Virus record (IMG/VR): IMGVR_UViG_3300008263_000033
Coordinates: 1 to 25,411 of that record
Strand: one strand, 5' to 3'
Source: a virus
Length of the DNA stretch: 25,411 bases
Under the pieces are notes generated by a model. It made no database searches, had not been told where the DNA came from, and saw only the letters and a list, made by a program, of their open reading frames with translations. Position numbers and translations under genes: made by a program. Positions within the stretch are counted from its first letter, which is position 1. Every line of letters begins with the position of its first letter. Positions 1-23,465 of the stretch are shown one piece after another.

Positions 1-194
1 GACAACAGTTACTACTTAGTTAGTTGTAGTTGTTTGATTAATTAATACCTAATGCCTAGTCCTAGTAGGTAAATAAACAGACCCCAGAGTGTTAAATACA
101 ATAAATACCACTGCCCTGTTCCTCTGTTCTGTAACTTTTGGTGGTTGTTTGGACCCTGTCTGACCTGGGACAATAGACTTTTTTGGGTTTTATG

Positions 195-217
195 TGTTAC
201 CTTTTTGCTTGGTAACA
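195..217. repeat. Inverted repeat, 7-bp stem
   Basis: Arms TGTTACC (195-201) and GGTAACA (211-217) pair perfectly around a 9-nt T-rich loop. It could be an RNA hairpin or a protein-binding dyad. No run of T follows, so it does not look like an intrinsic terminator. Confidence 0.4.
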
Positions 218-251
218 GGTTAGATATAGTGTAAGGGTTTTTATTATATTG

Positions 252-278
252 CTTTCGCCCTGACGCTTGTGGCGAAAG
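252..278. repeat. Inverted repeat, 8-bp stem
   Basis: Arms CTTTCGCC (252-259) and GGCGAAAG (271-278) are perfectly complementary with an 11-nt loop. The stem is GC-richer than its surroundings, so a stable RNA hairpin is plausible. It is the second of three hairpins within 125 bases. No T tract follows directly. Confidence 0.5.
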
Positions 279-292
279 GGGTAGTGTTTAAT

Positions 293-315
293 GGAAATCG
301 CTTGTTGCGATTTCC
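293..315. terminator. Strong hairpin just upstream of the terminase, possible terminator
   Basis: Arms GGAAATCGC (293-301) and GCGATTTCC (307-315) form a perfect 9-bp stem closed by a 5-nt loop, followed by an AT-rich stretch (TTATATTATATAATATT). It could terminate transcription arriving from the left, or act as a 5' leader hairpin for the structural operon. The downstream tract is mixed A/T rather than pure T, so terminator function is uncertain. It overlaps the -35-like hexamer of the putative promoter. Confidence 0.45.
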
Positions 316-329
316 TTATATTATATAAT
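302..329 (+). promoter_or_regulatory. Possible sigma70-type promoter for the structural operon
   Basis: TTGTTG (302-307) and a perfect TATAAT (324-329) are separated by 16 nt. Transcription would begin near 336, leaving only about 10 nt before the ATG at 346, a nearly leaderless message. The surroundings are so AT-rich that a TATAAT can arise by chance, and the -35 half lies inside a hairpin arm, so support is modest. Confidence 0.3.
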
Positions 330-345
330 ATTGGTGGTTTATAAT

Positions 346-2328
346 ATGTCGGCTAGGGCTGGGGATGCGCACCATACTAGGGAACTGAGTGCCCAAAGGA
401 AGGATGATTTCCTTAAGGCTTTGGGGTCTGGTATGACGGTGGCTGATGCTTCTAGGGTGGCTGGGGTTAAGCCTGACACGGTGAAGTATTGGACTAAGAC
501 TGATAAAAAATTTCGCGAACTTTTGGATGATGCTCGTATCTCTAGGGATGAGGTTAGGGCTGGGCAGAAGTCTTCTGAGAAGTTTGGTATAACGTTTAAA
601 GAGTTTTCTGAGCAGTATTTGGATATGAAGGTTTTTCCCCACCAAGAAAATTTTATTAGTCTTCTGGAAAAGGGTGAGCCTGCTTGGTTGCATCCTTCTA
701 TGGTGTATGAACCTGCGTCTCGTAATAGGGTTTTGATTAATATTCCCCCTGAGCACGCCAAGTCCACCACTGTGACTATCAACTACTCAACTTATAGGAT
801 TGCGCTTAATCCTAACGTTCGTATTATTATTGTGTCTAAGACTTTGTATAAAGCACGCGAATTTGTGTACGCTATCAAACAGCGTTTGTCTCATCCTCGT
901 TGGCAGAAACTGCAGGCAATGTATGGTCCTGAGGGTGGCTGGCAGGAAGATGCTGATACTTGGCGCACTGACACAGTGTACCTTGGTGCTGAGGCTAGGG
1001 ATTCTTCTGAGAAGGACCCAACGATTCAAGCCCTTGGTATGGGTGGACAAATTTACGGTGCACGCGCCGATTTAATTATTCTTGATGATTGTATTACTGG
1101 TGCCAACGCGCACGAGCACGAAAAACAAATCAAATGGTTGCAACAAGAAGTTATTACTCGTCTTGGTAAAAACGGTAAACTACTTATTGTAGGAACACGT
1201 ATTGCATCAAACGATTTGTATCGAGAACTTCGCAATCCAGAACATTGGTCTGGGGGCAAAACCCCTTTCACCTATTTGGCTATGCCAGCAGTTTTGGAAA
1301 TTGCGGACAAATGTGACGACTGGGTGACGCTCTGGTCCAGAAGTGACCGTCCTTGGGACGGTGACGAAGACACCACACCTGATTCTGATGGACTCTATCC
1401 AAAGTGGGATGGTCTTGCACTTCACCAACGCCGCTCAGAAGTCACGCCTACTACTTGGGCTATGGTATACCAACAACAAGATGTTGAAGAAGATTCCATA
1501 TTCCCACCTCTTTGTGTTCAAAGTTCTATAAATGGTATGCGTAAAGTTGGGCCTATACGTTTAGGTTCCCCTGGGCATCCTGATGATGGAACGTTTCGTA
1601 TTGTTATGGGCATTGACCCTGCAATGTCTGGTGCAACAGCAGCAACCGTTGTTGCTGTGGATGTTGAAACAAAACAACGATACGTTCTTGATGCAATGAA
1701 TATGACCGAACCAACACCAGAAAAAATTAGGCGACTAATTGAAGACTGGGTTTTAAAATATCAACCAAACGTTGTAGTTGTGGAGAAGAATGCGTTTCAG
1801 TTATTCCTTACGAAAGACGAAGCGATACGTGATTTTCTTGCTTCTCGTGGAATCGTATTTCGTGAGCACTTCACTGGTAACAACAAATGGGACGTCAATT
1901 TTGGCATTGCATCGATGGCTCCGTTGTTTGGAACAACTAACGAAGAACACTTCACTGGTAACAACAAATGGGACGTCAATTTTGGCATTGCATCGATGGC
2001 TCCGTTGTTTGGAACAACTAACGAAGAAAAGTTCGTTAGGAACTCCAACCTCATAAATTTACCTTCCACTACCAATAGTGAAGGTGTTAAGGCTTTAATT
2101 AACCAACTCATTGTCTGGAAACCAGATATGAGAAAAGGGCAACCATTTGATATGGTTATGGCTTTATGGTTCTGCGAGATTGTTATCAGAGAATGGGTTG
2201 AACGTTCAGGTTCCACCACAAACTATATGACCTCACGTTGGGCTAGTAGAAAACAATTAGCAAACAGATTCATTGTTGACCTTGATGAAGCGTTTGCTGA
2301 ACAACAATCAGAAATGTTTTACCACTAA
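346..2328 (+). CDS. terL: Terminase large subunit (packaging ATPase and nuclease)
   Basis: This is the motor that pumps DNA through the portal and cuts it. The N-terminal part has a helix-turn-helix-like stretch (about residues 15-45). Walker A is PPEHAKST (134-141) and Walker B is LIILDD (243-248), followed by a T of the coupling motif. The RNase H-like nuclease has D424 (GIDP), E480 (VVVVEK) and D602 (FDMVMALW) as likely metal-binding acids. I chose ATG 346 because GGTGG lies just upstream; TTG 331 and GTG 334 are alternatives in the same frame. The protein is 660 residues. Two oddities: residues 508-534 are repeated exactly as 535-561, between the second and third catalytic acids, and codon use changes near position 1020. 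The portal lies two small genes downstream, as expected. Family assignment is firm; enzymatic competence with the duplication is not. Confidence 0.95.
   Translation: MSARAGDAHHTRELSAQRKDDFLKALGSGMTVADASRVAGVKPDTVKYWTKTDKKFRELLDDARISRDEVRAGQKSSEKFGITFKEFSEQYLDMKVFPHQENFISLLEKGEPAWLHPSMVYEPASRNRVLINIPPEHAKSTTVTINYSTYRIALNPNVRIIIVSKTLYKAREFVYAIKQRLSHPRWQKLQAMYGPEGGWQEDADTWRTDTVYLGAEARDSSEKDPTIQALGMGGQIYGARADLIILDDCITGANAHEHEKQIKWLQQEVITRLGKNGKLLIVGTRIASNDLYRELRNPEHWSGGKTPFTYLAMPAVLEIADKCDDWVTLWSRSDRPWDGDEDTTPDSDGLYPKWDGLALHQRRSEVTPTTWAMVYQQQDVEEDSIFPPLCVQSSINGMRKVGPIRLGSPGHPDDGTFRIVMGIDPAMSGATAATVVAVDVETKQRYVLDAMNMTEPTPEKIRRLIEDWVLKYQPNVVVVEKNAFQLFLTKDEAIRDFLASRGIVFREHFTGNNKWDVNFGIASMAPLFGTTNEEHFTGNNKWDVNFGIASMAPLFGTTNEEKFVRNSNLINLPSTTNSEGVKALINQLIVWKPDMRKGQPFDMVMALWFCEIVIREWVERSGSTTNYMTSRWASRKQLANRFIVDLDEAFAEQQSEMFYH
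1867..2028 (+). repeat. Exact 81-bp tandem duplication inside the terminase gene
   Basis: Positions 1867-1947 and 1948-2028 are identical by eye over all 81 bases and directly adjacent. The unit encodes 27 residues beginning HFTGNNKWD and ending GTTNEE, and the reading frame is kept. The similarity stops at both edges (GAG versus GAA before, CAC versus AAG after). Zero divergence implies a very recent event or an assembly artefact. This segment is normally present once in terminases of this type. Confidence 0.95.
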
Positions 2329-2903: not shown

Positions 2904-4648
2904 TGTCAATTAACATAACAAAAATTGCTGCCAAGGTTGAGGCATTAAAACGCCGTAACCAAAGCCGTGATGCACGAATGGCTGACGTTCTCGAAGTACG
3001 CAGGGGCAACCTTGTTAGCGTGTTTCCAGAAATGTTCCCTGAAGGTGCAACCAAGGCTATGATTGCAAACTTCGTAGACGTAGCAGCAAGAGACGTTTCC
3101 GAAGTACTAGCACCACTACCTTCATTTAACTGCTCAGCAACCATTAACTCAGACCGTGCTAAAAAGTTTGCTGACACAAAAACACTAATTGCAAACAACT
3201 ATGTACAAGTATCACGTTTACAAACACAAATGTACCAAGGTGCAGACTGGTACGGAACCTACGGTTTCCTACCAATAGTTGTTGAAGCAGACACAGAACT
3301 AAACCTACCACGCATACGTGTAGAAAACCCTCTTGGTTCATACCCAGAGTTTGACAGATACAACCGTGTCGTATCATTCACTAAAAGATACATTAAAACA
3401 ATTGCTGAACTTATTGTAGAATTCCCAGAATTTGAAAGAGAAATCCTCAACGGATACAAAATAGAAGAAGTTGACCTCTATTCTGAAATAGAAATGGTCC
3501 GTTACGAAGATAAAGATATTATTCTTCTATATCTTCCTACCAGAGGTAACCTAGTTTTAACCAGCACACCTAACCCAATGGGTCAAGTGATGGTACGTGT
3601 AGCAATGCGCCCAGGAATTGACAACGAACCACGCGGACAATTCGATGATGTACTATGGGTACAAATTGCACGCGCACGTTTCGCACAACTTGCAATGGAC
3701 GCTGCAGAAAAATCCATCAACGCACCACTTGCTGTACCAAATGATGTCCAAGAGTTCGCTTTTGGACCTGATGCAATACTTAGAACTGCTCAGCCGCAGA
3801 ACATTCGCCGTGTAGGCTTAGAGGTTCCACCTGCTGCGTTCACTGAAGCAGCATTATTGCAACAAGAAATGCGAATGGGTGCACGTTACCCTGAAGGACG
3901 TTCAGGAAACATTGACGCATCCATCATTACAGGTCAAGGTGTACAAGCATTACTTGGTGCATTTGATACCCAAGTAAAAACAGGTCAACAAATCCTGTCA
4001 GACACCTTTGAAGACATAATTGAACTATGTTTCAAAATGGATGAGAAACTTTTCTCAGGTTCTAAAAAAATTAATGCCGTATCAAACGGTGCAAAATACG
4101 AATTAGAATACGACCCACGTAAAGACATACGTGGAGATTATGCAATACAAGTACGTTACGGTTTAATGTCAGGACTTGACCCAAGCCGTGCATTAATATT
4201 CTCACTACAAGCACTAGGTGCAGATTTAGTATCACGCGACTTTGTTATGCGTGAACTACCTTGGTCAATGAACGTAACAGGTGAACAACAATCAATTGAT
4301 GTTCAACGTATGCGCGATAACTTAAACAGTTCAATGGCTTCACTAGCGCAAGCAATACCACAAATGGTAGCACAAGGACAAGACCCTTCAGATATTGCAA
4401 TGAAAATGGCAGAAGTAATTAAGGAACGCCAAAAAGGTACACAAATAGAGGAAGCAGTACAAAAAGTATTCGCTCCTACACCTGAACCAGTTCCAACTCC
4501 TGCCCCACAAGTTGCCTCTGGGGTTCCTCCAATGGTGCCAGTTGAGCAAGCCGTCCCTCCTGCTCCTGCTGCAACCGCCCCAGAGGCCCCTCAACAAGGA
4601 CAACCACCAGTAGGATTACAAGAACTACTTTCACAATTAGGACAATAA
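2903..4648 (+). CDS. Portal protein
   Basis: The 581-residue product is the likely dodecameric ring at the capsid vertex through which DNA enters and leaves. It starts with GTG overlapping the previous stop by one base. Support comes from its place directly after the terminase, its length, and a portal-like pattern: a helical N-terminus (residues 1-70), a beta-rich middle with WYGTYGF near 110-120, and a conserved-looking segment around 330-355 (GNIDASIITGQGVQALLG) followed by a long helix. The C-terminal tail (about 525-567) is a low-complexity Pro/Ala/Val-rich linker ending in LLSQLGQ. No protease or MuF-like domain is fused. I am confident of the role but not of the exact portal family. 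Confidence 0.85.
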   Translation: MSINITKIAAKVEALKRRNQSRDARMADVLEVRRGNLVSVFPEMFPEGATKAMIANFVDVAARDVSEVLAPLPSFNCSATINSDRAKKFADTKTLIANNYVQVSRLQTQMYQGADWYGTYGFLPIVVEADTELNLPRIRVENPLGSYPEFDRYNRVVSFTKRYIKTIAELIVEFPEFEREILNGYKIEEVDLYSEIEMVRYEDKDIILLYLPTRGNLVLTSTPNPMGQVMVRVAMRPGIDNEPRGQFDDVLWVQIARARFAQLAMDAAEKSINAPLAVPNDVQEFAFGPDAILRTAQPQNIRRVGLEVPPAAFTEAALLQQEMRMGARYPEGRSGNIDASIITGQGVQALLGAFDTQVKTGQQILSDTFEDIIELCFKMDEKLFSGSKKINAVSNGAKYELEYDPRKDIRGDYAIQVRYGLMSGLDPSRALIFSLQALGADLVSRDFVMRELPWSMNVTGEQQSIDVQRMRDNLNSSMASLAQAIPQMVAQGQDPSDIAMKMAEVIKERQKGTQIEEAVQKVFAPTPEPVPTPAPQVASGVPPMVPVEQAVPPAPAATAPEAPQQGQPPVGLQELLSQLGQ

Positions 4649-5262: not shown

Positions 5263-8200
5263 GTTTAGTTTCAGACTGGGCTAATTGGGTTGACCAAAAT
5301 GTTGTTGAAAAAGGAAAAGCCCTAGTTGGTGAAACCCTTGAATACATTGCACCAGAAAACACACGTAGACGTGCAGCCCTTGAAAAAATGGGTGAGATAC
5401 AACAAAAAGTTGGCGCAGGAATATCAACAGGTTTACTGTTAACTGACAAAGACAACCCAGAATTTAAAGACGGATTCCAACTATCAGACATTGCAGCCAC
5501 ATATCGTGGACCTGCACAAAAAATTTCACCAGCACAAGCAGCATTTGGTGCATCAGACATTGCTCCTTTAAATATACCAAGAAAACTATTTGGTATAGCA
5601 GAAACATTAGGTGCTAATGTACCTACAGGTGGACGTAAAGACTTTGATATCTATGATGAAAACCAAAGACGTAAAGCATTTGATGAAGAAATCATAGGTA
5701 AATGGGCAACAGGTTTAGGGGACTTCGGTGTTTCTTGGTTCGCTGACCCTTTTGTTGTAGGAGCAGAAGCAGGAATACTTGCTAAGGCTAAACTTGTTAG
5801 CCCTAAAGCACCATTAGGTGACATTGAAGGTATTAAAAAAGTAACATCAACTAAAGGTGCATCAGCATTTATTGATTACGCTTTAGAATCAGATGCTATA
5901 GGATTATACAAACACCCTGTTGTTAAAATGTCCAATAACCCTGAACTTCTTGCAGGAGTATTTGGTGACATTAACGAAGCAAACTATGGTGTAAAAGCCA
6001 GACCACTTGCTGAGAACGCTTTTCGTGCAATGCTTGGGGATGAAAAAGCATTAGCATTTGTTGAAAAAGAAGCAGCCTCAATCAGTGATATGATTGATAA
6101 AGCCAAATCACCTAAACTTTTAAAACACGATTTACAATATGTAGCAGACTTACGTTACAATGGTGACGTTAATGAGATGCTATTAAAAGATAAAGAACTA
6201 GGTAACAAGTACGAAAACATTATCGAAGACCTAAAAGTACGCAGTGCTGGTCTAAGAAATATAATGAATCGTGTAGTTGATGCCTCACTTGAATCACCAT
6301 TTATAGGTGATAGAGCAATTATGCCATCACGTTTCTCTGTTGTTGAGAAAGCACGAGCAGGAATATCTGATGCTAAAGCAAAAGCATTCCTTAACGAAAC
6401 ATCAAGACTTAAAACAGGTAACCTTAACAGGGTTGATGGACTAGAATGGTCCACTAAAACATTTAAAAAATCTTTACAAGACCACGCAGTTAGAGTGGTT
6501 TCTTGGTCTGGATTACAGAAACCTTCAGGTTGGTTAGAACATAAAGGTATTGCTTCTTCAGGTTCAGCCGAAGAACTAATAGCATTTATGGACCAAGTTG
6601 GACCACTTAAGAACAATAAAGGTGCTTTTCAAAAGAGAGCACTGATTAACAAATATATGTCTGCTCAAACAGAAGCAGATAGAATTGCTGTTGCCATACA
6701 AATAGAAAACTCTATGGTTAAAGCAATCAATAAAAAGTATGGTCTTAATAGAAAACTAACACCCTCAGAAGTTAACTGGGCTAAAAAAGAAGGCGTGCCT
6801 TCCCCTAAAACTATGGGCGATGTTATCAAATGGAAGATAGACCAAAGAAGAGCAAACGTTCTAAATCACTACCGTGAACGTGGTTTTGCTTACAATGATG
6901 GTGAATGGATTATTACAGACCCTGTACTAAGTTCACAAATCGGTGACGCAATGCCAATGTTAAACATTAAACTTTACGAAACATTTGCTAAAGAAGATTT
7001 AAGTTTCCTGCATAACGCCACATATAGTGTTAAAGATGCTATGCAAAGAGCATACTTTGCTTTTGATGCAGTGTGGAGACCAGCAGTATTGTTACGTCTT
7101 GGCTACCCACAACGTAACGTTATTGAAGGTACACTACGCGCAGCGTTATACAACAAAAACATTATGGAAGTTGGAATGGCTTTAGCCAAAGGTTCAAAGA
7201 ACCTAACCAATAACCTATATCACAGCATAGTAAGTAACCGTATTGAGAAGTATAACATTGCCCAAGAGATGGGTATTAATGCCCCTAAAGCAACGTTAAG
7301 TTCTTGGAATTCTATTGTTAAATGGCAAAAGAATGAACTTGAAATCATTAGAAACAGATACAAAAGTTTATCAAATAACCTATTAAAAGAACAAAACAAA
7401 CTTCGTAGCAAAACTATTAAAGCATCTGATAAGAAAACTACTCAGGCTAAAATAGAAAGAATCAAAGAAGACCTAGATGATGTGTCTGCAAGTTTAAATC
7501 AACAAGAAAACTTGTACGCAGAGATGCTAATAAAAGTTGATACTGCAACCAAAGGACGTGGTGGCAAGTATAATAAGATACGTCAAGGTCAAGAGAACAT
7601 TGTTGTAGATAATCTACAGTTCAGAGGTTCTAAATCTGGTGCTATCGGTTCAATAGGAATGAAACTATCTTCCTCATTGCAACGCCAAACCAAAGAAATA
7701 CGTAACCCTTTAATGCAAGGGTCACAATACAAATCTTATGGTTGGAGTATGGTAGAACCAACTGACCCTAACTATTGGGCTTCAATGTATGTTGCTGCTA
7801 GACAATTACGTGAAGCAGAAGTTACACGAAGAATGTTACTTATCGATATTAATCGTGGACCTAAATATGTTAGAAGCGAACTTAACAAAATTAAACAATG
7901 GTTTACATCTAACGATAGACTTGCACAAAAAGAATTCCGTAACACTAAAGTTGAATACCCAACATTAGAAAACAAAAAATCACCATACAATGTTGATAAC
8001 TATATTGCTGACAGATGGAATGAAATACAAAGTTACTTTCCAGATGTTAGTGTAAGGTTTGATATTGCAAGTAAACCATACGAAAAGATACCTTCAGCCT
8101 ACGAACTTGAAGCACGTATGGGTCAACTTGGTGACCAACTTTCCCCTGTTTATGGTGAAATTGTAGGTAAACCTTTAGACAGAAATGTCAAAGATGTTTA

Positions 8201-10013
8201 CAATGATTTCATTAATACAGCATTTAAATACTTAGGTTCAATGCCTGAAGATGCACTTGTACGTCATCCATTCTATGAAAACGTATATCAAAGTGCTATT
8301 CAACGTGGTGGCGAAGCACTAGTTGCTAAACAAAAACGTACAGGTATTGCACCAAGTAACATAGAAATAGCAGCAGTTGAAAAAGCAGCACACCGTGAAG
8401 CATTAAAAGAAACTAACCGTGTACTTTACACAGTTAAAAGATATTCTAACTTTGCTGCAACAGTTGCATTTGTTTCACCATTTATTCAAGCAGCAACAAA
8501 TACTTTCCGTGTATGGGGTAAATTAGCATTAGAAAACCCAACACCTTTTATTAGACCAACACAGTTATGGCAAGACCCATACAATAAAGAACTTATTGAA
8601 AATGACCCAGAAACTGGGGAACCATTAGTAACTTTTCAAATACCAGAATCTTGGAGAAAGTACGCTGGATTCTCTGAAGTAACTTCATTCAAGTTTCCTG
8701 TAACAAGATTAAACATTCCTTTCTCAGGTGAACCTTGGTACTCTGCAGGGTTCGGTCCAATCATTCAAATGCCTATATCTAATCTTGTAAGAGCAGTGCC
8801 TTACCTAGATGCTAAAGTTCAAAGAACAACAGGTATTGATTTACCAATTAAAAGAGTTCTTGTTGATAAATACATTTTACCTAATGGTCCTTCAAAAGAA
8901 TTTGGTTCTTGGGATTTGGCTTTACCATCAGGTGCTAAACGTGCAGTATCACTTGCAAGAGGTGTTGATGATAAATCATTCCTTTCATCATTGCAAAAGA
9001 TTACAGCAATTGAAAATCAAAAGTACAGATTAGGTTTAAGAACAACAGAACCTACACCTGAAGAATTAGTTGGCAGAAATGCTTGGCTATTTGCTTTACG
9101 TTTTGGTGTTAATATGACCTTTGGTGTTGTACCAGGATACGGTCAAGAGTTTGAATTCTACTTTAATGAATACAGAAAACTTCAAGACAAATTTGGTTTT
9201 GAACAAGCAGATGCTACATTCTATGAGAAGTATCCTGAATACTTTGAAATGGTTGTAACAAGTTTTCGTGAGAACACAACAGGTGCTGAAGCAAGTGTGG
9301 CAGCAACAGACCAGTCTGTTAGAAACCGTAATCTAATTTCTAAGATTGTTGGTGACCCTAACAAGAATCCTTTTGTTACTCAACTTATCACAAACAGTTG
9401 GGGTGTTGAATCACAGTTTGACCAATCAGCATACGCTTTCCAATTAAAAGAAGTTCCAGGTATGACAGGTGAAGTTGCATACCGTAATGAAATTCCTATT
9501 GAAACTGCTTTAGTTAACGCTAAAGTTAAAACTGGTTGGGCAACATATAATAGTTTTATGTCTTGGCTTGATTCTGAAGTTGAGAAGAACGGATTTGTTT
9601 CTGTTAACTCTCGTGGTGCAGGATGGCTTAAAGATGCAAAGAAACAATTCGTTGAAGACCAAAAAGATGTTAACCCTGATTGGTACAATACTTATAAAGA
9701 GGGCTTTAAGATTGATAAATATAAAGCCACTTTACGTAGCATAGACACAATATTAGAAGACGAAGAGTTTACTAATAGTGACTGGTTTAAGAATGAACCA
9801 GCATTTCAGTGGCTTGTTGAGTATATGGATTTCAGGGATTATATAAGTAATGAACTACAAAACAGTAAGTCATCTGATATTGAATCAGCAAGTAACGCAG
9901 CATTAAGAGAAACTGTAGACAATTTTGTTGCAGATGCTAAACGTAATTCTCCTAAGTTTGCACTTTGGTATGACAGATTTCTTGAACAAGATGGATTCGG
10001 AGTTTACAAATAA
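5259..10013 (+). CDS. Giant (1584-residue) putative internal virion / DNA-ejection protein
   Basis: The largest gene in the window. It starts at an ATGA overlap and ends sharing an A with the next ATG. Visible parts: a soluble N-terminal region, a segment at about 607-625 (LLRLGYPQRNVIEG), a charged coiled-coil-like stretch at about 690-757 rich in Lys, Glu, Leu and Asn, and a notable segment at about 1058-1090 (KRYSNFAATVAFVSPF) that is amphipathic and could insert into or lie on a membrane. I see no clear transmembrane helices, no peptidase or lysozyme active site, and no tape-measure-like periodicity. Its position between portal and scaffold, together with two further large genes, fits the internal or ejected proteins of short-tailed phages. 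The ejection role is inference from context; a minor capsid role is an alternative. Confidence 0.6.
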   Translation: MSLVSDWANWVDQNVVEKGKALVGETLEYIAPENTRRRAALEKMGEIQQKVGAGISTGLLLTDKDNPEFKDGFQLSDIAATYRGPAQKISPAQAAFGASDIAPLNIPRKLFGIAETLGANVPTGGRKDFDIYDENQRRKAFDEEIIGKWATGLGDFGVSWFADPFVVGAEAGILAKAKLVSPKAPLGDIEGIKKVTSTKGASAFIDYALESDAIGLYKHPVVKMSNNPELLAGVFGDINEANYGVKARPLAENAFRAMLGDEKALAFVEKEAASISDMIDKAKSPKLLKHDLQYVADLRYNGDVNEMLLKDKELGNKYENIIEDLKVRSAGLRNIMNRVVDASLESPFIGDRAIMPSRFSVVEKARAGISDAKAKAFLNETSRLKTGNLNRVDGLEWSTKTFKKSLQDHAVRVVSWSGLQKPSGWLEHKGIASSGSAEELIAFMDQVGPLKNNKGAFQKRALINKYMSAQTEADRIAVAIQIENSMVKAINKKYGLNRKLTPSEVNWAKKEGVPSPKTMGDVIKWKIDQRRANVLNHYRERGFAYNDGEWIITDPVLSSQIGDAMPMLNIKLYETFAKEDLSFLHNATYSVKDAMQRAYFAFDAVWRPAVLLRLGYPQRNVIEGTLRAALYNKNIMEVGMALAKGSKNLTNNLYHSIVSNRIEKYNIAQEMGINAPKATLSSWNSIVKWQKNELEIIRNRYKSLSNNLLKEQNKLRSKTIKASDKKTTQAKIERIKEDLDDVSASLNQQENLYAEMLIKVDTATKGRGGKYNKIRQGQENIVVDNLQFRGSKSGAIGSIGMKLSSSLQRQTKEIRNPLMQGSQYKSYGWSMVEPTDPNYWASMYVAARQLREAEVTRRMLLIDINRGPKYVRSELNKIKQWFTSNDRLAQKEFRNTKVEYPTLENKKSPYNVDNYIADRWNEIQSYFPDVSVRFDIASKPYEKIPSAYELEARMGQLGDQLSPVYGEIVGKPLDRNVKDVYNDFINTAFKYLGSMPEDALVRHPFYENVYQSAIQRGGEALVAKQKRTGIAPSNIEIAAVEKAAHREALKETNRVLYTVKRYSNFAATVAFVSPFIQAATNTFRVWGKLALENPTPFIRPTQLWQDPYNKELIENDPETGEPLVTFQIPESWRKYAGFSEVTSFKFPVTRLNIPFSGEPWYSAGFGPIIQMPISNLVRAVPYLDAKVQRTTGIDLPIKRVLVDKYILPNGPSKEFGSWDLALPSGAKRAVSLARGVDDKSFLSSLQKITAIENQKYRLGLRTTEPTPEELVGRNAWLFALRFGVNMTFGVVPGYGQEFEFYFNEYRKLQDKFGFEQADATFYEKYPEYFEMVVTSFRENTTGAEASVAATDQSVRNRNLISKIVGDPNKNPFVTQLITNSWGVESQFDQSAYAFQLKEVPGMTGEVAYRNEIPIETALVNAKVKTGWATYNSFMSWLDSEVEKNGFVSVNSRGAGWLKDAKKQFVEDQKDVNPDWYNTYKEGFKIDKYKATLRSIDTILEDEEFTNSDWFKNEPAFQWLVEYMDFRDYISNELQNSKSSDIESASNAALRETVDNFVADAKRNSPKFALWYDRFLEQDGFGVYK

Positions 10014-11122
10014 TGGTTCAACCCCCTGTTCAACCCCCATTGAGTGGTAATAATTGGGAAGAGTTATATGGTCAAGGTGGTTCACGCACTAACACTTCTG
10101 GTGGCTTAACTACTGCTGGCTCAGGTAATATTGTTATTGGTGGTAAATCTTATCCTGTTGGTCAAGCATATGATTTGTATTCTAAAAGCCAAGACCAAAA
10201 TACAAGAAGACAAATCTTACAATACATTCAAGCATTTAACCCAGGATATAATCCAAAAAATACTACTGCTGCTAACTCTGCTTGGAATAAAATACTTGAT
10301 GGTTATTCATTAGGTGAAAATAGAAAGAAACCTTTTGATACTTGGTTTACTGAAGAGGTAAATCTTAATCAAGATATGCTTGGTTTAGGTGACGGAACAA
10401 CCACATTACTCCAACCATCTGTTACAAGCAGAGAAGATGCTTACGATTATTTTAATAGTCTTATGCGTGACTATGTTGGTATGGATGCTGATGCTAAAGA
10501 CTTTAACCAATACTATAAAGCATTAAACAAACTTGAAAAGACTAAAGTTGCTAAACAAAAAACTGTTCGCACAGGTTCTACTACTACACAAATAGTTACA
10601 CCTGGTGTAACAAATGAAGACCGTGAAGAACTTGCTTTAGATTTTGTTTCTAAATATATTGACACTAAAGGTATTGAAAATGCTGGTGGTGCAATAGGTG
10701 CTAACCTTCGTGATATTCGTAGACTTGCTGCTGATTATAACGTTTCGTTATCTGATGCTGAGGTACGTCAATATGCTCTTAATGGTTTAAGAGATAAGAC
10801 TTCTATCGAAACTGTTAGAACTAAAATTCAAAACACTGCTAAAGCAATGTATCAAAACCTTTCACAGTTTATTGACCAAGGTTTAACTGTTAAAGATATT
10901 GCTTCACAATACATTAACAGAATGGCTAATGTTTTAGAAGTTAATCCTGAAACAATTAAACTTGATAACAGGTATGTTCAAAACGCTTTAACAACTCTTC
11001 CTAACTTTACTGACTTTAATAAAATGTTACGTAATAGTCCACAATGGGAATACACAAACAATGCTCGTGAAGAGGCTGCAGGTTATGCAAATAAAATTCT
11101 TCAAGATTTTGGGTTAAGATAA
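10013..11122 (+). CDS. Putative internal virion protein (369 residues)
   Basis: The ATG overlaps the previous stop by one base. The first 45 residues are Gly/Ser/Pro/Thr rich (MVQPPVQPPLSGNN), a flexible tail, followed by a mostly helical body. The C-terminal end has an aromatic and charged pattern (SPQWEYTNNAREEA near 341-355) and finishes in LQDFGLR. I recall similar endings in structural-module proteins of actinophages but cannot name a family. It sits between the giant protein and the LysM-like protein, so the three probably form one functional group in the virion. There are no catalytic residues I can point to. Confidence 0.55.
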   Translation: MVQPPVQPPLSGNNWEELYGQGGSRTNTSGGLTTAGSGNIVIGGKSYPVGQAYDLYSKSQDQNTRRQILQYIQAFNPGYNPKNTTAANSAWNKILDGYSLGENRKKPFDTWFTEEVNLNQDMLGLGDGTTTLLQPSVTSREDAYDYFNSLMRDYVGMDADAKDFNQYYKALNKLEKTKVAKQKTVRTGSTTTQIVTPGVTNEDREELALDFVSKYIDTKGIENAGGAIGANLRDIRRLAADYNVSLSDAEVRQYALNGLRDKTSIETVRTKIQNTAKAMYQNLSQFIDQGLTVKDIASQYINRMANVLEVNPETIKLDNRYVQNALTTLPNFTDFNKMLRNSPQWEYTNNAREEAAGYANKILQDFGLR

Positions 11123-12364
11123 ATGGCAAAGGTAGATAAAAATACTGGTAGGGTAACAGTTCAAAAGGGCGACACTGCTGCATCTATTGCTAAAGCAGTG
11201 GCTGCTGCAACTGGGCAAAAGGTTACTACTGCACAAATTAACCAAGCAATTTCTGCTAACAAAACTTTGGCTGCTAGACAAAAAGCAGGTTCAACTGTTT
11301 TGTTTAGTGGTACAACTTTTAAAGTTCCAGGTATTACTGCTGCTGGTCCAACTCCTTCAGGTAATGCACCTATTAGTAAAACAGTTATTAATACAGTTAC
11401 TAATGATGATGGTAGCGTAACTATTTCTTATAGTGACGGTACAAGTGAAACTAAAGGTGGCGGTAGAGCAACTTTACCTGACCCTGCTGATGCTATGCGT
11501 GAAGAAGGTCGCCGTAGTGCTTTTGCTATTCTTGAAAAAGAATTTAAAGACAACGGTTTAGATACTTTAATCCCTGAGATTAAAAGATTTATGACAGAAG
11601 GGTATGGTGCTGAAGAAGCATCACTTATGTTACCAGAAACCCAAGCATACAAAACACGTTTCGCTGGTAACGAAGGTCGTAAAGCATTAGGGTTACCTGT
11701 GTACACACCAGGTCAATACATTACTGCTGAACAAACTTACCGTGATTTGTTTAACCAATACAATCTTGGTGAACTTGCTAATCAGGAAACATACAACTCT
11801 TTAATTGGTGGGGCTGTTTCAATTGATGAGGCTAAGGCTCGTGTTGATAATGTGTTTGCTAGAATTGACAAAGCACCAGATGAATTAAAAACCCAGTTAA
11901 GTACTTACTTAAATGCTTATGGTGTTGGTGACCCAACTAAACAGCGTTCACAAATTGCCCTTGCTTTAATGAAGGGACCTCAAGGTATTAACGAATTAGA
12001 AACAAGTCTTCGTAAAGCAAATATTCGTACAGGTGCAGCATTAAGTAATATCAATGTTGCTGAGGAAAACATTAGTCAACTTGAGAAACAATTAAGCACA
12101 AGTGGTTTATCAACTGAACAGATTGGTAATCTTTCAAGAGAAGCCTACGCAAATATTGCAGAGGTTCAACCAACTGTAACAAAACTTTCAGAAATTTACG
12201 GTGACCAAACACCTGGTCTTGCTAAAGAACTTGAACAAGAAGCGTTCTTTGGTTTAGCATCACAACGCCGTAAGAAACTTCAAGAAAGAGAAAGAGCCAC
12301 ATTCGGTGGACAAGCAGGTGTTTCAACTGCTTCATTAGCGCAGCGAACAGCAGGCGCAATTTAG
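11123..12364 (+). CDS. Virion protein with LysM-like N-terminal domain
   Basis: 413 residues, starting directly after the previous stop. Residues about 9-70 resemble a LysM peptidoglycan-binding module: VTVQKGDTAASIAKAV, then TTAQINQAISANK, then a final strand with FKVPG. A short Thr/Gly linker with a beta-rich segment (NDDGSVTISYSDGTSE) follows, then a long helical body. The C-terminus is basic (SQRRKKLQERERATFGG) and ends in a Gly/Ala/Ser/Thr tail. Known LysM domains bind the glycan backbone of peptidoglycan, so cell-wall engagement during DNA entry is a reasonable inference. No hydrolase domain is fused. The LysM call rests on pattern only; the insert in the first helix is longer than usual. 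Confidence 0.6.
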   Translation: MAKVDKNTGRVTVQKGDTAASIAKAVAAATGQKVTTAQINQAISANKTLAARQKAGSTVLFSGTTFKVPGITAAGPTPSGNAPISKTVINTVTNDDGSVTISYSDGTSETKGGGRATLPDPADAMREEGRRSAFAILEKEFKDNGLDTLIPEIKRFMTEGYGAEEASLMLPETQAYKTRFAGNEGRKALGLPVYTPGQYITAEQTYRDLFNQYNLGELANQETYNSLIGGAVSIDEAKARVDNVFARIDKAPDELKTQLSTYLNAYGVGDPTKQRSQIALALMKGPQGINELETSLRKANIRTGAALSNINVAEENISQLEKQLSTSGLSTEQIGNLSREAYANIAEVQPTVTKLSEIYGDQTPGLAKELEQEAFFGLASQRRKKLQERERATFGGQAGVSTASLAQRTAGAI

Positions 12365-12483
12365 ACCCTCAGTAGGATAGACCAGCCCCTACGAGAGTAA
12401 CAAGACTGGTAGCAAGAGCCATAGTATTTTCCCCGATTTATTATGAGGCTTGCGACTAACACAAATAGAATGGGAGCGTTGCG
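12365..12483. other. Non-coding gap before the scaffold gene
   Basis: About 119 bases without a convincing gene, unusual in an operon where most genes overlap. It is more GC-rich than its surroundings and contains a Shine-Dalgarno-like GGGAG (12472-12476). A 14-codon open frame (12443-12487, MRLATNTNRMGALR) overlaps the scaffold ATG as ATGA and could be a leader peptide. The scaffold ATG lies in the loop of a 5-bp hairpin (GTTGC 12478-12482, GCAAC 12488-12492). No tRNA fold with the usual T-arm consensus is present. A role in setting scaffold or capsid expression is possible but unproven. Confidence 0.4.
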
Positions 12484-12960
12484 ATGAGCAACACATATCA
12501 AGAATGGGAAGATGACGATGATGATATTAATCAAAGTCAACAATCAGATAGCGATTTATTAAAGCAACTTCGTAAGGAGTTGAGAACTAAATCTAAAATG
12601 CTTTCCGAAATGGAAGGACAACTATCTTCGATTAAGACTGAACAACGTCAAAACGTTATCAAATCAGTTCTTGAAAGCAAGGGCGTAAGTCCAAAGATAG
12701 CAAAATTTATTCCTCAAGATATTGAGGCTAGTCCAGAAATCATCGATAACTGGATTGCAGAAAATGCTGATGTCTTTGGTTTAACAGTACAGACGCCCGA
12801 TGATGTGAAGCCAGATTTGGCTACACTCAGACAAATCGATTCTGTTACTGCTAATGCCCAGTCTCCTGCTGGCTTGGATGATTTATATTTGAGATTACAA
12901 AACGCAGAATCTGCTGAAGAAATCACAAGTATGATTTTCCAACAAGGCGGAGAGATTTAG
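12484..12960 (+). CDS. Probable capsid scaffolding protein
   Basis: 158 residues, placed directly upstream of the major capsid gene. The N-terminus is very acidic (EWEDDDDD at residues 7-14), then a charged heptad-like helix (about 20-60, LLKQLRKELRTKSKML), then a globular-looking part with VSPKIAKFIPQDI near 68-80, and a short helical C-terminus. An acidic N-terminus, central coiled coil and location before the capsid gene fit phage scaffolding proteins, which guide procapsid assembly and are then removed. The start at 12484 follows GGGAG with 7-nt spacing. No protease is visible nearby, so removal rather than cleavage may occur; that is inference. Confidence 0.75.
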   Translation: MSNTYQEWEDDDDDINQSQQSDSDLLKQLRKELRTKSKMLSEMEGQLSSIKTEQRQNVIKSVLESKGVSPKIAKFIPQDIEASPEIIDNWIAENADVFGLTVQTPDDVKPDLATLRQIDSVTANAQSPAGLDDLYLRLQNAESAEEITSMIFQQGGEI

Positions 12961-12993
12961 GCTAACTAACTACTATCTAAGGAAATAACCGAA

Positions 12994-14019
12994 ATGCCTA
13001 ATGCATATACCGCGCTCTCTGGTGGTTCTGCTGCAACTAACGGTGGTCTTGGTGGCGGTCAATATTCAAGTGCTGATAACGTAGGTACCTTTACACCATC
13101 CAATGGTGCAGGTCTCGTACAAAAAGCATACGACCGCTTAGTTGAGTTTGCTTTACGCTCTCAACCATTACTACGTTCAGTCGCAGACAAACGTCCAGCA
13201 CGCCAATCAATGCCAGGCTCATCTGTAGTATTCCAAATCTACAGTGACCTAAGCAAAGCAACAACTGCTTTGTCAGAACAAGTTGACCCAGATTCAGTAG
13301 CGATTGGTGCTCCAACTGCTGTAACCGTAGTTCTTAACGAATACGGTAACGCAGTGTTGACCACACGCAAACTGCAATTAATGTCACTTGCTGAAGTTGA
13401 CCCAGCGATTGCAAACATCGTTGCGTTCAATATGGCAGATTCCATTGACGAAATTGTTCAAACAGAACTTCGCGCTGGAACAAACGTAATCTACGCAAGC
13501 AATGCTTCAGGTACTCGCGCAACAGCAACAACAAACGTTACTGGCGCACACACCTTGAAAGCAGCCGATATCCGTCTCGCAGTTGCAAAACTACGTGCAG
13601 GTAAAGCAGTTGCTCGTAAAGGAAGCCTATACTGGTGTGCAATCCACCCAGAAGTTTCACACGACCTTCGTGCAGAAACAGGCTCAGCCTCTTGGAGATT
13701 GCCTCACGAATACCAATCAAATGCCGAAATTTGGGCAGGAGAAATTGGAACATTTGAAGGTGCATACTTCATCGAATCACCACGTATGTACAACGCCACC
13801 GATGGTGGTTCAAGTGCACGCGTGTTCCGTACAATTCTTGCTGGTCAACAAGCACTTGCTGAAGCAGTTGCTGAAGAACCACACGTAGTTATCGGAAACG
13901 TAACTGACAAATTGATGCGCTTGCGCCCAATTGGTTGGTACGGTGTACTTGGCTTCAAACGTTATCGTGAAGAAGCATTGTACAGAATTGAATCATCTTC
14001 AAGCATTAACGCTTCATAA
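12994..14019 (+). CDS. Major capsid protein, N4-gp56-like family
   Basis: 341 residues, starting after AAGGA (12979-12983). The first 30 residues are Gly/Ala/Ser rich. The body matches the pattern I know for the N4-gp56 family of HK97-fold capsid proteins: an SVVFQIYSDL strand near 70-80, a long helix around DPAIANIVAFNMADSI, and near 295-325 the C-terminal pattern EPHVVIG...KLMRLRPIGWYGVLGFKRYREEAL. It forms the icosahedral shell. Scaffold lies immediately upstream and a terminator-like hairpin immediately downstream, as expected for the most highly expressed gene. The codons here use more C-ending forms than the neighbouring genes, consistent with high expression. Confidence 0.9.
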   Translation: MPNAYTALSGGSAATNGGLGGGQYSSADNVGTFTPSNGAGLVQKAYDRLVEFALRSQPLLRSVADKRPARQSMPGSSVVFQIYSDLSKATTALSEQVDPDSVAIGAPTAVTVVLNEYGNAVLTTRKLQLMSLAEVDPAIANIVAFNMADSIDEIVQTELRAGTNVIYASNASGTRATATTNVTGAHTLKAADIRLAVAKLRAGKAVARKGSLYWCAIHPEVSHDLRAETGSASWRLPHEYQSNAEIWAGEIGTFEGAYFIESPRMYNATDGGSSARVFRTILAGQQALAEAVAEEPHVVIGNVTDKLMRLRPIGWYGVLGFKRYREEALYRIESSSSINAS

Positions 14020-14038
14020 GTTAGATTCAAATCAAATT

Positions 14039-14066
14039 TAAAGCCCCTGGGCAACTGGGGGCTTTA
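14039..14066. terminator. Terminator-like hairpin after the capsid gene
   Basis: Arms TAAAGCCCC (14039-14047) and GGGGCTTTA (14058-14066) form a perfect 9-bp stem with a 10-nt loop, 19 bases after the capsid stop. The stem reads into CTTTA CTTATTA, a short imperfect T-rich tail. The stem is flanked by A on one side and T on the other, so it could work in both directions. Partial termination here would raise capsid transcript over downstream genes. Confidence 0.75.
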
Positions 14067-14083
14067 CTTATTAGGAGAGCAAA

Positions 14084-14341
14084 TTGCCAACATTTTTTCC
14101 ACCAACAGTTGATGAAGGACCAGCAGGGTATGGTCTATTCTATCGTTACAAACATAAACGTGGAATTAGTGTATTAAAAATTAGTGGCACATATTATAAA
14201 ATAAGAGTTCCTTCTACCGACCAAGTTGATTCTGCTACAGAATATTATGCTGGAGGACACGAGCACAATGTTACCAATGCACAAAAGACAGCACTTATTA
14301 ACGCTGGCATCGGCATTACTGAAAGTAACTTTGAAGGATGA
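14084..14341 (+). CDS. Small protein downstream of capsid, unknown function
   Basis: 85 residues. The start is TTG (14084), supported by a good AGGAGA (14073-14078) at normal spacing and by no better ATG. The product starts MPTFFPPTVDEGPAGYGLF, has a beta-rich centre (SVLKISGTYYKI), and ends with a pattern (YYAGGHEHNVTNAQKTALINAG) like small beta-and-helix modules I recall from other phage structural clusters. Its TGA overlaps the next ATG as ATGA. It could be a capsid accessory or head-completion protein. No family name can be given. Confidence 0.7.
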   Translation: MPTFFPPTVDEGPAGYGLFYRYKHKRGISVLKISGTYYKIRVPSTDQVDSATEYYAGGHEHNVTNAQKTALINAGIGITESNFEG

Positions 14342-14613
14342 TAGAGAACGTTTTAATAGCAGGAGCAACAGCAAGCGCGATTGCCTCTGTATATTTTGTG
14401 ATTGCACCATCGGCAAAAAGGATTCGTTCTATGATGGAATGGTTGGAAAGATTTCGCCGAGATTGGGAAGGCGAGCCTGGTGGTCCAGGTAGAGACCGTG
14501 TTCCAGGTGTAATGGAAAGACTTAACAGACTAGATGGTGAGTTAAGTAATAATGGTGGTACATCTATTAAAGATGCCATTGATAGAATTGAAAAAGTTTT
14601 AGGGACAAAATGA
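14338..14613 (+). CDS. Membrane-anchored small protein, DUF2746-like
   Basis: 91 residues with one hydrophobic segment at about residues 3-24 (NVLIAGATASAIASVYFVI), then a basic/aromatic stretch (KRIRSMMEWLERFRRDW), a Gly/Pro loop (GEPGGPGRD) and a C-terminal helix (GVMERLNRLDGELSNNGG). I know this arrangement from DUF2746, a family found in actinobacteriophages, usually near lysis or structural genes; the assignment is by memory of pattern. It probably sits in the cytoplasmic membrane with its C-terminus in the cytoplasm. A holin role is conceivable, but no endolysin is next to it. Confidence 0.65.
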   Translation: MIENVLIAGATASAIASVYFVIAPSAKRIRSMMEWLERFRRDWEGEPGGPGRDRVPGVMERLNRLDGELSNNGGTSIKDAIDRIEKVLGTK

Positions 14614-14861
14614 GTTTACATAGAGAACGTACACATCCTGAATATGTTGAAGGATGTTTTGGTTGTAAGGCTTCAACAGTTGACTTGAATCCTGGTGAAG
14701 CATCCACTAGACTAACAATGTCTGCAAAGAAGTGGGACAATGAACTTGCGTTATATCGTCAGGCTAGGTCACAGGGTATTCAACCTGATAGCACCAAAAC
14801 TAAAGATATACGTAGGGCAATAGATATATCAAACAAAACAGGAGTAGCATACGGTGCGTAA
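14610..14861 (+). CDS. Small CxxC protein typical of actinophage structural clusters
   Basis: 83 residues, starting at an ATGA overlap with the previous gene. The N-terminus has a Cys pair (EGCFGCKAS, residues 15-23), and the rest is helical with a recognisable pattern: KKWDNELALYRQARSQGIQP, then residues I read as an RRAIDIS helix. I recall comparable small proteins in many actinobacteriophage genomes. The two Cys residues and His/Glu nearby could bind zinc, but only one CxxC is present, so a dimer or a disulfide is also possible. Function unknown. Confidence 0.7.
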   Translation: MSLHRERTHPEYVEGCFGCKASTVDLNPGEASTRLTMSAKKWDNELALYRQARSQGIQPDSTKTKDIRRAIDISNKTGVAYGA

Positions 14862-15018
14862 AAATCCAGGTAAGATTAAAAAAGTTATGAAGGAATACAA
14901 AAAGGGCGAACTCAATATGGGTAAGTCTAGTAAAAAAGTTAAGTCAAAGAAACAAGCAATTGCTATCGCTATGAGCGAAGCAGGTATGGCTAAGAAAAAG
15001 AAAAAGGGTAAAAAATAA
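14854..15018 (+). CDS. Lysine-rich miniprotein, DUF6496-like
   Basis: 54 residues. The GTG at 14854 overlaps the previous gene by 8 bases and has GGAG at 14841-14844. The product starts MRNPGKIKKVMKEYKKGEL, contains KSKKQAIAIAMSEAG (about residues 30-44), and ends in a lysine tail (AKKKKKGKK). The combination of a short basic helix, a Gly-rich turn, and the KQAIAIALSEA-type helix is what I recall for DUF6496, a family of unknown function seen in phages and bacteria. It starts a run of basic miniproteins. Confidence 0.7.
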   Translation: MRKNPGKIKKVMKEYKKGELNMGKSSKKVKSKKQAIAIAMSEAGMAKKKKKGKK

Positions 15019-15158
15019 TGTGCGCAACTTGTGGATGTAACTATCCTAACTTAGAACACGCTATGGCTAATGCTAAAGGCAATAACCCAATGGGTATGCC
15101 AATTGCACCAAAGCCATCAAGCATTGAAAAAGCAACACCTAAGCAACCTAAGAAGTAA
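15018..15158 (+). CDS. 46-residue Cys-rich miniprotein
   Basis: The ATG at 15018 shares the last A of the previous TAA. The product begins MCATCGCNYPNLEHAMANAKG and ends in a Pro/Lys-rich tail (TPKQPKK). Cysteines at positions 2, 5 and 7 with H14 could coordinate a metal (CxxCxC...H), which I infer only from spacing. The one-base overlap and 2-nt gap to the next gene support a real coding sequence. No family is recognised beyond a resemblance to short CxxCGC proteins in other phages. Confidence 0.6.
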   Translation: MCATCGCNYPNLEHAMANAKGNNPMGMPIAPKPSSIEKATPKQPKK

Positions 15159-15160
15159 CT

Positions 15161-15643
15161 ATGGCTATCAAAGTTAAACAATCAACTATCGATGAAATTA
15201 AAAAGATGGGTATGACTAAGGCTCTTGCTGCTGCAAAGACTCGCCGTACTCCAGAATACCAAGAAGCAATCAAACGTATGTATGGTGCTAAGAGATTAGC
15301 AAAGGCTACTGCTGGTGCTAAAACAACAAGAGGAAGTTCAATTCCTGTTGGTGGTGTTATGGGTTCTAAGAGGTCTAAAGTTATGTCTGGTCCTGTAACT
15401 TCAACAATGAAGAAAAAAGTTGTTAAACGTAACGCTGCTGGTAAAGTTGTTAATAGGCAAAGTTTTGCTGATTTAACTCCTGCACAAAAAAAGACTGTTA
15501 CAGCAAAAATGAAGGCTGACCGTAGTAAAACTTCACGTACTGCAGGTAAAGTTGTTGGTGTTCTTTCAGCACCGTTTGGTCCTGTTGGTGCTGCTGCTGC
15601 AATTTATGGTACAAGAGATTTCAGAAAAAGAAAGAAGAAATAA
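15161..15643 (+). CDS. Basic 160-residue protein of unknown function
   Basis: Very rich in Lys, Ala, Thr and Arg. The N-terminus is helical (MAIKVKQSTIDEIKKMG), the middle is low complexity and basic, and one short hydrophobic segment (VVGVLSAPFGPVGAAAAIYG, about residues 129-148) precedes a basic end (RDFRKRKKK). It resembles the 2338-2775 product in composition and layout (basic, with a small Gly/Ala-rich segment before a basic tail, and a shared LTPAQKK / MSPAQKK motif), so the two may be distant paralogues. It may bind DNA or associate with membrane; neither is shown. Confidence 0.7.
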   Translation: MAIKVKQSTIDEIKKMGMTKALAAAKTRRTPEYQEAIKRMYGAKRLAKATAGAKTTRGSSIPVGGVMGSKRSKVMSGPVTSTMKKKVVKRNAAGKVVNRQSFADLTPAQKKTVTAKMKADRSKTSRTAGKVVGVLSAPFGPVGAAAAIYGTRDFRKRKKK

Positions 15644-15903
15644 TGATTAAAGATTCTCGCCTTAAAAGGGCTGGAGTCTCTGGGTATAACAAACCAAAAC
15701 GAACCCCTAGCCACCCAACTAAATCACACGTTGTTGTGGCTAAGGTTGGTTCACAAGTTAAGACTATTCGTTTTGGTCAGCAAGGTGTTACTGGGGACAG
15801 ACAACCTACTAAACGTCAAGCATCTTTTAAAGCACGTCACGCAAAGAATATTGCTAAGGGTAAGATGAGCGCAGCCTATTGGGCGGATAAGGTTAAGTGG
15901 TGA
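15643..15903 (+). CDS. Widespread small basic phage protein, function unknown
   Basis: 86 residues starting MIKDSRLKRAGVSGYNKPKR. I recognise a strongly conserved pattern known from many marine and freshwater phages: RLKRAGVSGYNKPKRTP, KSHVVVAKVG, then IRFGQQGV, and a C-terminal FKARHAKNIAKGK...AAYWADKVKW. The highly basic, compact protein with conserved aromatic end has no assigned function that I know. Its ATG overlaps the previous TAA by one base and the next GTG overlaps its end by 4 bases, so it is part of the same translationally coupled run. Confidence 0.8.
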   Translation: MIKDSRLKRAGVSGYNKPKRTPSHPTKSHVVVAKVGSQVKTIRFGQQGVTGDRQPTKRQASFKARHAKNIAKGKMSAAYWADKVKW

Positions 15904-16055: not shown

Positions 16056-16072
16056 AACATATTGGGGACGAT

Positions 16073-18014: not shown

Positions 18015-18023
18015 GGTAAATTA

Positions 18024-20042
18024 ATGTCCAGAAAATATTCTAGCGTTTCACTCGAAACAGAAGTTGTTGGTTCTTTAACCACATCTGCAACAAGTATTAC
18101 AGTTGTTAACGCAACTAATCTTCTCGGTGGTATCAACGCAGCATCCATCAACACTACTGATGACTTCATTGTTGTTCTTGACCCTGAAACATCAAGTGAA
18201 GAAATTGTTAGGGTAACTGCTGTTGCTTCTAACACTCTCACTGTTGTTCGTGGTTATGATGGTTCAACTGCTAAGACTCATACTTCTGGTGCCAAGGTTC
18301 GCCATATGGCTATCGGTGAGGATATGCGTAATGCTGCAGCCCACATTGAGGCTACTGCTGCTCACGGTGCTACTGGTGCTGTGGTTGGTACAACTAATAC
18401 CCAAACTTTAACTAACAAAACTATTAGTGCTGCAAGTAATACTATTAGTGATATTGCTAACGCTAACATTGCTTCTGCTGCTGCGATTGCTGATACTAAA
18501 CTTGGTACTATTTCTACAGCGAATAAGGTTCAGAACTCTGCTACTACTGCTACTTCAAGTAACTCTGGTTCAGCAATTGTTTCTCGTGATTCTTCAGGTA
18601 ACTTCAGTGCAGGAACTATCACTGCTGCTTTAACAGGTAACGTAACTGGTAATGCTTCTACTGCTACCACTCTTGCTACTGCTAGAGATTTTCAAATCCT
18701 TGGTGATGTTGAGGCTTCTGCTGTTTCTTTTAATGGTTCAGGTAACGTTAACTTAACAACACAGATTGCTAACAATGTTATTGTTAACGCAGACATTAAT
18801 GCTTCTGCTGCAATTGATAAGACTAAGATTATTGCTAACAATGTTATTGTTAACGCAGACATTAATGCTTCTGCTGCAATTGATAAGACTAAGATTGCTG
18901 GTACAGCAATTACTGCTGCAGATACTGGTACTGTAACTAACACAATGTTGGCTGGTTCAATTGCCAACAGTAAGTTAGCAACTGACCCTTTGGCTCGTGC
19001 TAACCACACTGGTACACAACTAGCAGCAACTGTTTCAGATTTTGATACACAGGTTCGTACTTCTAAAGTAACTGACCTTGCTGCACCTACTGGTTCATTC
19101 TCAATGAACTCACAAAAGATTACTAACCTTGCAACAGCAACAACAAGCACTGATGCTATTAACAAAGATTATGTTGATAGTAAAGTTGGTGCCAATAATG
19201 GTATTGCTTCACTTGATTCTGCAGGTAAGGTTCCAACTTCACAACTTCCTGCTGTTGCTATCGCTGAAACCTATGTTGTAAATTCACAAGCAGCGATGCT
19301 TGCTTTACCATCTGATGTTGGTGAGATTGCAATTCGTACAGATGTTAGCAAGTCTTTCATTCTTACAGCATCTCCTGCTTCTACTCTTGGTAACTGGCAA
19401 GAACTGTTAACCAGTGATGCTGTTACTTCTGTTGATGGTCAAACAGGTAACGTAAGTTTGGCTTCAACATATGTTAACGTTACTGGTGATACTATGTCTG
19501 GTGCCCTTGCTATGGGTACTAACAAGATTACTGGTATGGGTGACCCAACATCTGCACAGGATGCTGCAACTAAAAACTATGTTGATACTGCAGTTATTGC
19601 ACCAAGTAATCTTACTGGTCCTATTACTTCTGTTGGTTCAGCAACTTCTGTTGCTGCACAAACTGGTACTGGTTCTACTTTTGTTATGCAAACCAGTCCA
19701 ACTTTAACCACACCTAACATTGGTGTTGCTACTGCAACATCTATTAACGGTACAACTATTCCAAATACAGCAACACTTGTTACAACTGCTGATACTGCTT
19801 TACTTGTTCCAAGTCAAACAGGTCAAAATGGTAAAGTTTTAACAACTAACGGTACTGCTTCTTCTTGGGGTAGTGCTGGTTCAGCAACTTATTATCAAAC
19901 TTCAGCCCCTACAGCGACTGCTGTTGGTGAGTTGTGGGTTGATTCTGATGCAACAGCATCAATTTTAAATACTAACGATTTTGTTCAAAAGACAAATATT
20001 TATTCAGAAGCGATTCATCCGTTCGTGATGATGGGAGCATAA
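18024..20042 (+). CDS. Tail fibre protein with repeat-built shaft
   Basis: 672 residues. The N-terminus carries a small beta domain with the same pattern as the adaptor (IVVLDPETSSEEIVRV, then VRGYDGSTAKTHTSGAKV at about 74-92). Next come shaft repeats: TLTNKTISAASNTI, three related units of the type ANIASAAAIADTKL / ADINASAAIDKTKI, and two NKIT...KDYVD / KNYVD units (about 362-390 and 497-520) common in phage fibres. The C-terminal end has a YYQTSAPT...GELWVDSD motif near 620-642 also found in the 21941-22864 gene. Two shaft units are exact copies (66 bp). It probably forms a trimeric, host-contacting or fibre-base protein. Heavy Ala/Thr/Asn/Ser content is typical. Confidence 0.85.
   Translation: MSRKYSSVSLETEVVGSLTTSATSITVVNATNLLGGINAASINTTDDFIVVLDPETSSEEIVRVTAVASNTLTVVRGYDGSTAKTHTSGAKVRHMAIGEDMRNAAAHIEATAAHGATGAVVGTTNTQTLTNKTISAASNTISDIANANIASAAAIADTKLGTISTANKVQNSATTATSSNSGSAIVSRDSSGNFSAGTITAALTGNVTGNASTATTLATARDFQILGDVEASAVSFNGSGNVNLTTQIANNVIVNADINASAAIDKTKIIANNVIVNADINASAAIDKTKIAGTAITAADTGTVTNTMLAGSIANSKLATDPLARANHTGTQLAATVSDFDTQVRTSKVTDLAAPTGSFSMNSQKITNLATATTSTDAINKDYVDSKVGANNGIASLDSAGKVPTSQLPAVAIAETYVVNSQAAMLALPSDVGEIAIRTDVSKSFILTASPASTLGNWQELLTSDAVTSVDGQTGNVSLASTYVNVTGDTMSGALAMGTNKITGMGDPTSAQDAATKNYVDTAVIAPSNLTGPITSVGSATSVAAQTGTGSTFVMQTSPTLTTPNIGVATATSINGTTIPNTATLVTTADTALLVPSQTGQNGKVLTTNGTASSWGSAGSATYYQTSAPTATAVGELWVDSDATASILNTNDFVQKTNIYSEAIHPFVMMGA
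18765..18896 (+). repeat. Exact 66-bp tandem duplication in the tail fibre gene
   Basis: Positions 18765-18830 and 18831-18896 are identical by eye and adjacent. The unit encodes 22 residues (248-269 and 270-291) from IANNVIVNADIN to DKTKI and keeps the frame. A diverged relative (IANANIASAAAIADTKL) lies about 100 residues upstream, so the exact copy is clearly much younger than the older repeat family. Confidence 0.95.
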
Positions 20043-20051
20043 GGAAAACTA

Positions 20052-22864: not shown

Positions 22865-22865
22865 T

Positions 22866-23447: not shown

Positions 23448-23465
23448 TAAGATAAGGAACACCTA

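Follow-up and report, generated by a model that had tools for sequence, protein, structure and literature searches.

Is an exact tandem repeat within the nuclease domain of a phage large terminase (TerL) a property of the phage, or only of the contig in which it was assembled? The question is raised by a 25.4-kb IMG/VR record of a tailed freshwater phage (25,411 bp; "the window" refers to this whole stretch), in which an 81-nt unit (HFTGNNKWDVNFGIASMAPLFGTTNEE) is followed directly by a second copy identical base for base (1867-1947 and 1948-2028; exactly 2.0 copies, 100% match). An exact repeat of 81 nt is far outside the range of chance. As detailed below, the duplication is very probably an assembly artefact, with two copies absent from the phage itself, and the phage gene most likely contains the unit once, giving an ordinary TerL of 633 residues.

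The terminase gene and its tandem repeat

The genes of the window encode TerL, a portal, a 1584-aa protein, a major head protein, a glycosyltransferase and a tail-fibre-like protein (Table 1). The glycosyltransferase gene (16073-17134; PHROG 13126) has TPR repeats and is located among the structural genes.

Table 1. Coordinates of the features discussed, in window positions
Feature	Position	Strand	Basis
Large terminase (TerL) gene, 660 aa as assembled	346..2328	+	PHROG 38, E 6e-65; 30-terminase alignment
D424 codon, first putative catalytic acid of the nuclease domain	1615..1617	+	Invariant in 30 terminases
E480 codon, second putative catalytic acid	1783..1785	+	Invariant in 30 terminases
terL stretch of least DNA variation among 20 close strains	1789..1896	+	Copy 1 of the 81-bp unit starts inside
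Copy 1 of the 81-bp unit	1867..1947	+	Direct repeat comparison
Copy 2 of the 81-bp unit, identical to copy 1	1948..2028	+	Direct repeat comparison
D602 codon, third putative catalytic acid	2149..2151	+	Invariant in 30 terminases
Copy 1 of the 66-bp unit, tail-fibre-like gene (18024-20042)	18765..18830	+	Single in L088, L089, L171 and L173
Copy 2 of the 66-bp unit, tail-fibre-like gene	18831..18896	+	Single in L088, L089, L171 and L173

The terL reading frame runs from an ATG to a stop codon, and its product matches the PHROG 38 profile over residues 9-610; as assembled it is 660 aa long, versus approximately 633 aa in close relatives. The ATPase motifs, a P-loop-like PPEHAKST (residues 134-141) and LIILDD (243-248), are invariant or nearly so in the 30 aligned sequences, and the three acids of the RNase H-like nuclease, D424, E480 and D602, are invariant in all of them. 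The window TerL shares these conserved ATPase motifs and D/E/D nuclease acids with PHROG 38 terminases, the PhiV-1 terminase (8dgc) and T4 gp17 (3cpe). A structural model of a single-copy relative matches the folds of 8dgc and 3cpe over its whole length, and also matches the terminase 5oe8 and the terminase nuclease domains 5m1f, 4dkw and 5c12. The enzyme is therefore an ordinary TerL, and beyond the assembled 27-residue repeat nothing unusual was found relative to known terminases. By protein, the nearest named relatives are the TerL of Caudovirales sp. ct2KA10 (OX376640; 52% identity) and those of Streptomyces phages such as Stella and Manuel (~42% identity), each over 95-97% of the query. 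All of these belong to other lineages, and the identities refer to the protein overall. A second profile, that of a small-terminase family (PHROG 4044, E 8e-9), matches the start of the terminase (residues 10-64; window 346-540), which suggests that the N-terminus may be a fused, small-subunit-like DNA-binding domain.

The repeat keeps the terminase reading frame and occupies residues 508-561, flanked by E480 and D602. An exact, in-frame 81-bp duplication between these two acids of the nuclease domain had been proposed in the original prediction, and it was recovered here by sequence comparison and the 30-terminase alignment. Ten alignment columns within the unit are invariant (T G N K D G A L F G), and in the single-copy model the unit spans the last part of a core strand and a pair of short helices together with the turn that follows. 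As modelled, the unit is thus more than a loop.

Copy number in related contigs

Eighty IMG/VR loci with encoded relatives were compared, using the bases to the left and right of the unit as anchors. In all 61 contigs in which both flanks were alignable and intact, exactly 81 bases, or one copy, separated the flanks, and most of these contigs carry their own strain-specific bases within the unit. In one further contig, L049, almost nothing lies between the flanks. One copy was likewise found in 29 of the 29 relatives in the protein alignment (the thirtieth sequence being that of the window), so that among the relatives examined there was no related terminase with two copies. The 81-bp unit itself is present in seven IMG/VR contigs, in one copy apiece. 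A degenerate search for the junction between copy 1 and copy 2 across the searchable IMG/VR contigs gave no match, a result that is supporting and not conclusive. Neither this junction search nor the 61 alignable relatives yielded a second independent sequence with two copies, and the remaining contig, L049, is deleted at the site.

The closest comparison is provided by L056 (3300008120_005010), which shares 166 + 81 + 172 bases (left flank, unit and right flank) with the window at 100% identity but has a single copy. It is the only same-strain contig at the terL site, and as it is itself misassembled (see below) it is a poor witness; in principle, it could represent the collapse of a real duplication.

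A second exact tandem duplication in the window

The 81-bp repeat is not the only one of its kind in the window, since the tail-fibre-like gene contains an exact, tandem, in-frame duplication of 66 bp. Contigs L171/L172 match window positions 6523-25411 (18.9 kb) and L173 matches positions 13628-25411 (11.8 kb), in each case at 99.9-100%, and their only structural difference from the window is that the 66-bp unit is single. The unit is also single in L088 (paired with L171) and L089 (paired with L173). Therefore, both full exact tandem duplications of the window are missing from otherwise near-identical contigs: same-strain contigs without the second copy are L056 for the 81-bp unit and L088, L089, L171 and L173 for the 66-bp unit. 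At neither duplication do the breakpoints show microhomology (shared suffix 0, shared prefix 0). Natural copy-number variation of the tail-fibre motif VNADINASAAIDKTKI was considered and rejected, as two copies occur in the window alone and one in each of the ten other contigs found to contain this motif or a close variant.

Gains and losses in neighbouring contigs

Only one other full exact tandem duplication, of 104 bp, was found in approximately 1.1 Mb of related contigs; it lies in L104 (3300008120_001648), a contig from the same data set (3300008120) as L056. At 4375-4582, it splits a tail gene between two reading frames. Close relatives do not have it, and it is likely to be a misassembly. 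Losses were also observed. Relative to the window and to relatives of 94-96% identity, L056 lacks 82, 124 and ~129 bp, of which the 82- and 124-bp losses break reading frames (near 3788 and 7263), and just before terL it has 6 bp in place of 264 bp in the window (81-344). L049 (3300008266_011168) has zero mismatches to L013 in the terminase gene, yet 79 bp are missing near 2690; the gap corresponds to gene nucleotides 1525-1603 (window 1870-1948), which is almost exactly the 81-bp unit, and it destroys the frame. These frameshifting deletions in L056 and L049 are also likely misassemblies, although at face value they would be mistaken for broken genes.

Near-identical contigs of the series to which L056 belongs often differ by such gains and losses, with deletions of 46-246 bp. 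This series (33000081xx-33000084xx) is presumably a Lake Erie set. Where a relative of 93% identity or more was available for comparison, discrepancies were found in 8 of 18 contigs from this series versus 2 of 90 others (Fisher p ~5e-6, which is only indicative because the series was grouped post hoc and because assigning the error within a pair needs judgement). The window may belong to the same error-prone series, a guess based on its near-identical contigs.

How an assembly join could double 81 bases

Four observations underlie the assembly-artefact interpretation: the unit is single in the other contigs examined, a second duplication that same-strain contigs lack occurs on the same contig, the breakpoints are blunt, and a misassembled contig is broken at the terL site. 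We infer a mechanism in which two short-read contigs or graph paths of one phage, whose ends had 81 bases in common, were joined without being merged, such that the shared bases would be written twice through the end-to-end join. Under such blind joining, an overlap of n bases would produce an exact doubling of n bases with blunt breakpoints, and a gap of n bases would produce a loss of n bases. This is the simplest cause that would account for both kinds of event. The model predicts exact two-copy repeats without microhomology, in agreement with both duplications of the window, accompanied by losses of varied length.

The break itself may have been provoked by an island of DNA that is nearly identical among co-occurring strains. 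Among 20 close strains, 1834-1896 and 1789-1832 are the longest runs conserved in 90% or more of them, and the two longest invariant runs, 1856-1896 and 1801-1832, overlap the start of the unit or lie just upstream of it. Co-occurring strains share the island DNA, and such sharing is a usual cause of breaks in short-read graphs. The island as a whole is nearly without variation among these strains, synonymous sites included; as it is variable in the more distant L020, recent recombination is a likelier explanation of it than a DNA element with a function. Another cause considered for the break was branching at a strain-variable base. The last base of the unit (1947/2028) is indeed variable among relatives, but the closest strain diverges already at 1924, and this explanation was therefore not relied on.

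A fixed k-mer length (k ~81) was rejected as the cause, since the loss in L049 is 79 bp and the remaining events are anywhere between 46 and 246 bp long. These event lengths fit no single k, and therefore the general blind-join model was used. A Great Lakes study assembled Microcystis isolate genomes with IDBA-UD at k 52-92 (PMC5647855), although these were isolates and not the metagenome contigs considered here. In published reports of false duplications caused by misassembly (for example, PMC2864568 and PMC9516828), the assembly likewise contains adjacent identical sequence that the organism lacks; the cases described there are larger, haplotype-related and from animal genomes, whereas the present one is a short, overlap-length repeat in a metagenome phage contig.

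Competing explanations

The reading frame counts against an artefact. Both 81 and 66 are multiples of three, an outcome expected once in nine from random joins, and the errors in neighbouring contigs are mostly out of frame (104, 79, 82 and 124 are not multiples of three). The exactness of the repeat and the retention of frame in both duplications are what would be expected if this phage strain had undergone a real and very recent in-frame tandem duplication, with one copy in its normal place in the nuclease, the other extruded, and the allele a tolerated or segregating passenger. A two-copy structural model is compatible with this, as copy 1 appears as a low-confidence loop (residues 509-546, pLDDT <50) and copy 2 partly forms helix. 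However, a real duplication would have to be reconciled with the single copy in the same-strain L056 and 60 other relatives, and it would place an extra 27-residue segment, ten of whose positions are invariant, in the RNase H-like core. Furthermore, two such events would have to have formed on one genome without breakpoint microhomology; in phages and bacteria, tandem duplications that arise spontaneously usually do so between short direct repeats. A real duplication is thus improbable. The more specific version, in which the conserved TGNNKWD helix-turn segment has very recently been duplicated in frame and the allele segregates in a freshwater actinophage-like population, with one copy looped out and packaging intact, is improbable as well, and no more probable than the general one.

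Structure prediction with one and two copies, which the original prediction had put forward as a check, does give a worse model for two copies, and this too has been counted against a real duplication. The mean AlphaFold2 pLDDT was 69.8 for the single-copy L003 protein versus 65.1 for the two-copy window protein, a comparison that is biased by the alignment and cannot decide the matter, since the extra copy has no counterpart in any aligned relative. As the alignment makes a poorer two-copy model nearly unavoidable, structure prediction was set aside as an arbiter.

It is very unlikely that the duplication is selected and functional, with an extra helix-turn beside the active site altering cleavage or packaging. 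The in-frame exactness of the repeat is its one point of support; the copies are undiverged, no second two-copy lineage was found among the contigs searched, and the two-copy model leads one to expect structural disruption. A literature search for terminases with tandem duplications and nuclease domains gave one paper, which by its title and abstract concerns a Pseudomonas phage and is unrelated. Least credible of all, to the point of being close to negligible, is the proposal that two copies are the normal state and that one of them was lost from the single-copy contigs by repeat collapse. Tandem repeats can be collapsed in short-read assembly and L056 is poorly assembled, but 61 contigs drawn from dozens of data sets would all have to have been affected, most of them with strain-specific bases in the unit. 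In addition, two other contigs that agree with the window elsewhere have only one copy of the 66-bp unit.

Overall, an assembly join error remains the preferred explanation. The original prediction had located the site correctly and had listed an assembly artefact among its options, but the reading it placed foremost, that of a duplicated active-site loop in a terminase, is not supported: the unit is single in all relatives examined and in the same-strain contig, and the second duplication on the contig is also missing from same-strain contigs.

Implications

The main value of these observations is as a warning, since contigs in public viral collections hold exact in-frame duplications and frameshifting deletions that resemble biology. 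Comparison with near-identical contigs from other assemblies is a cheap test for such artefacts. If the duplication were nevertheless real, it would show, as an experiment of nature, what the RNase H-like core of the packaging motor can tolerate.
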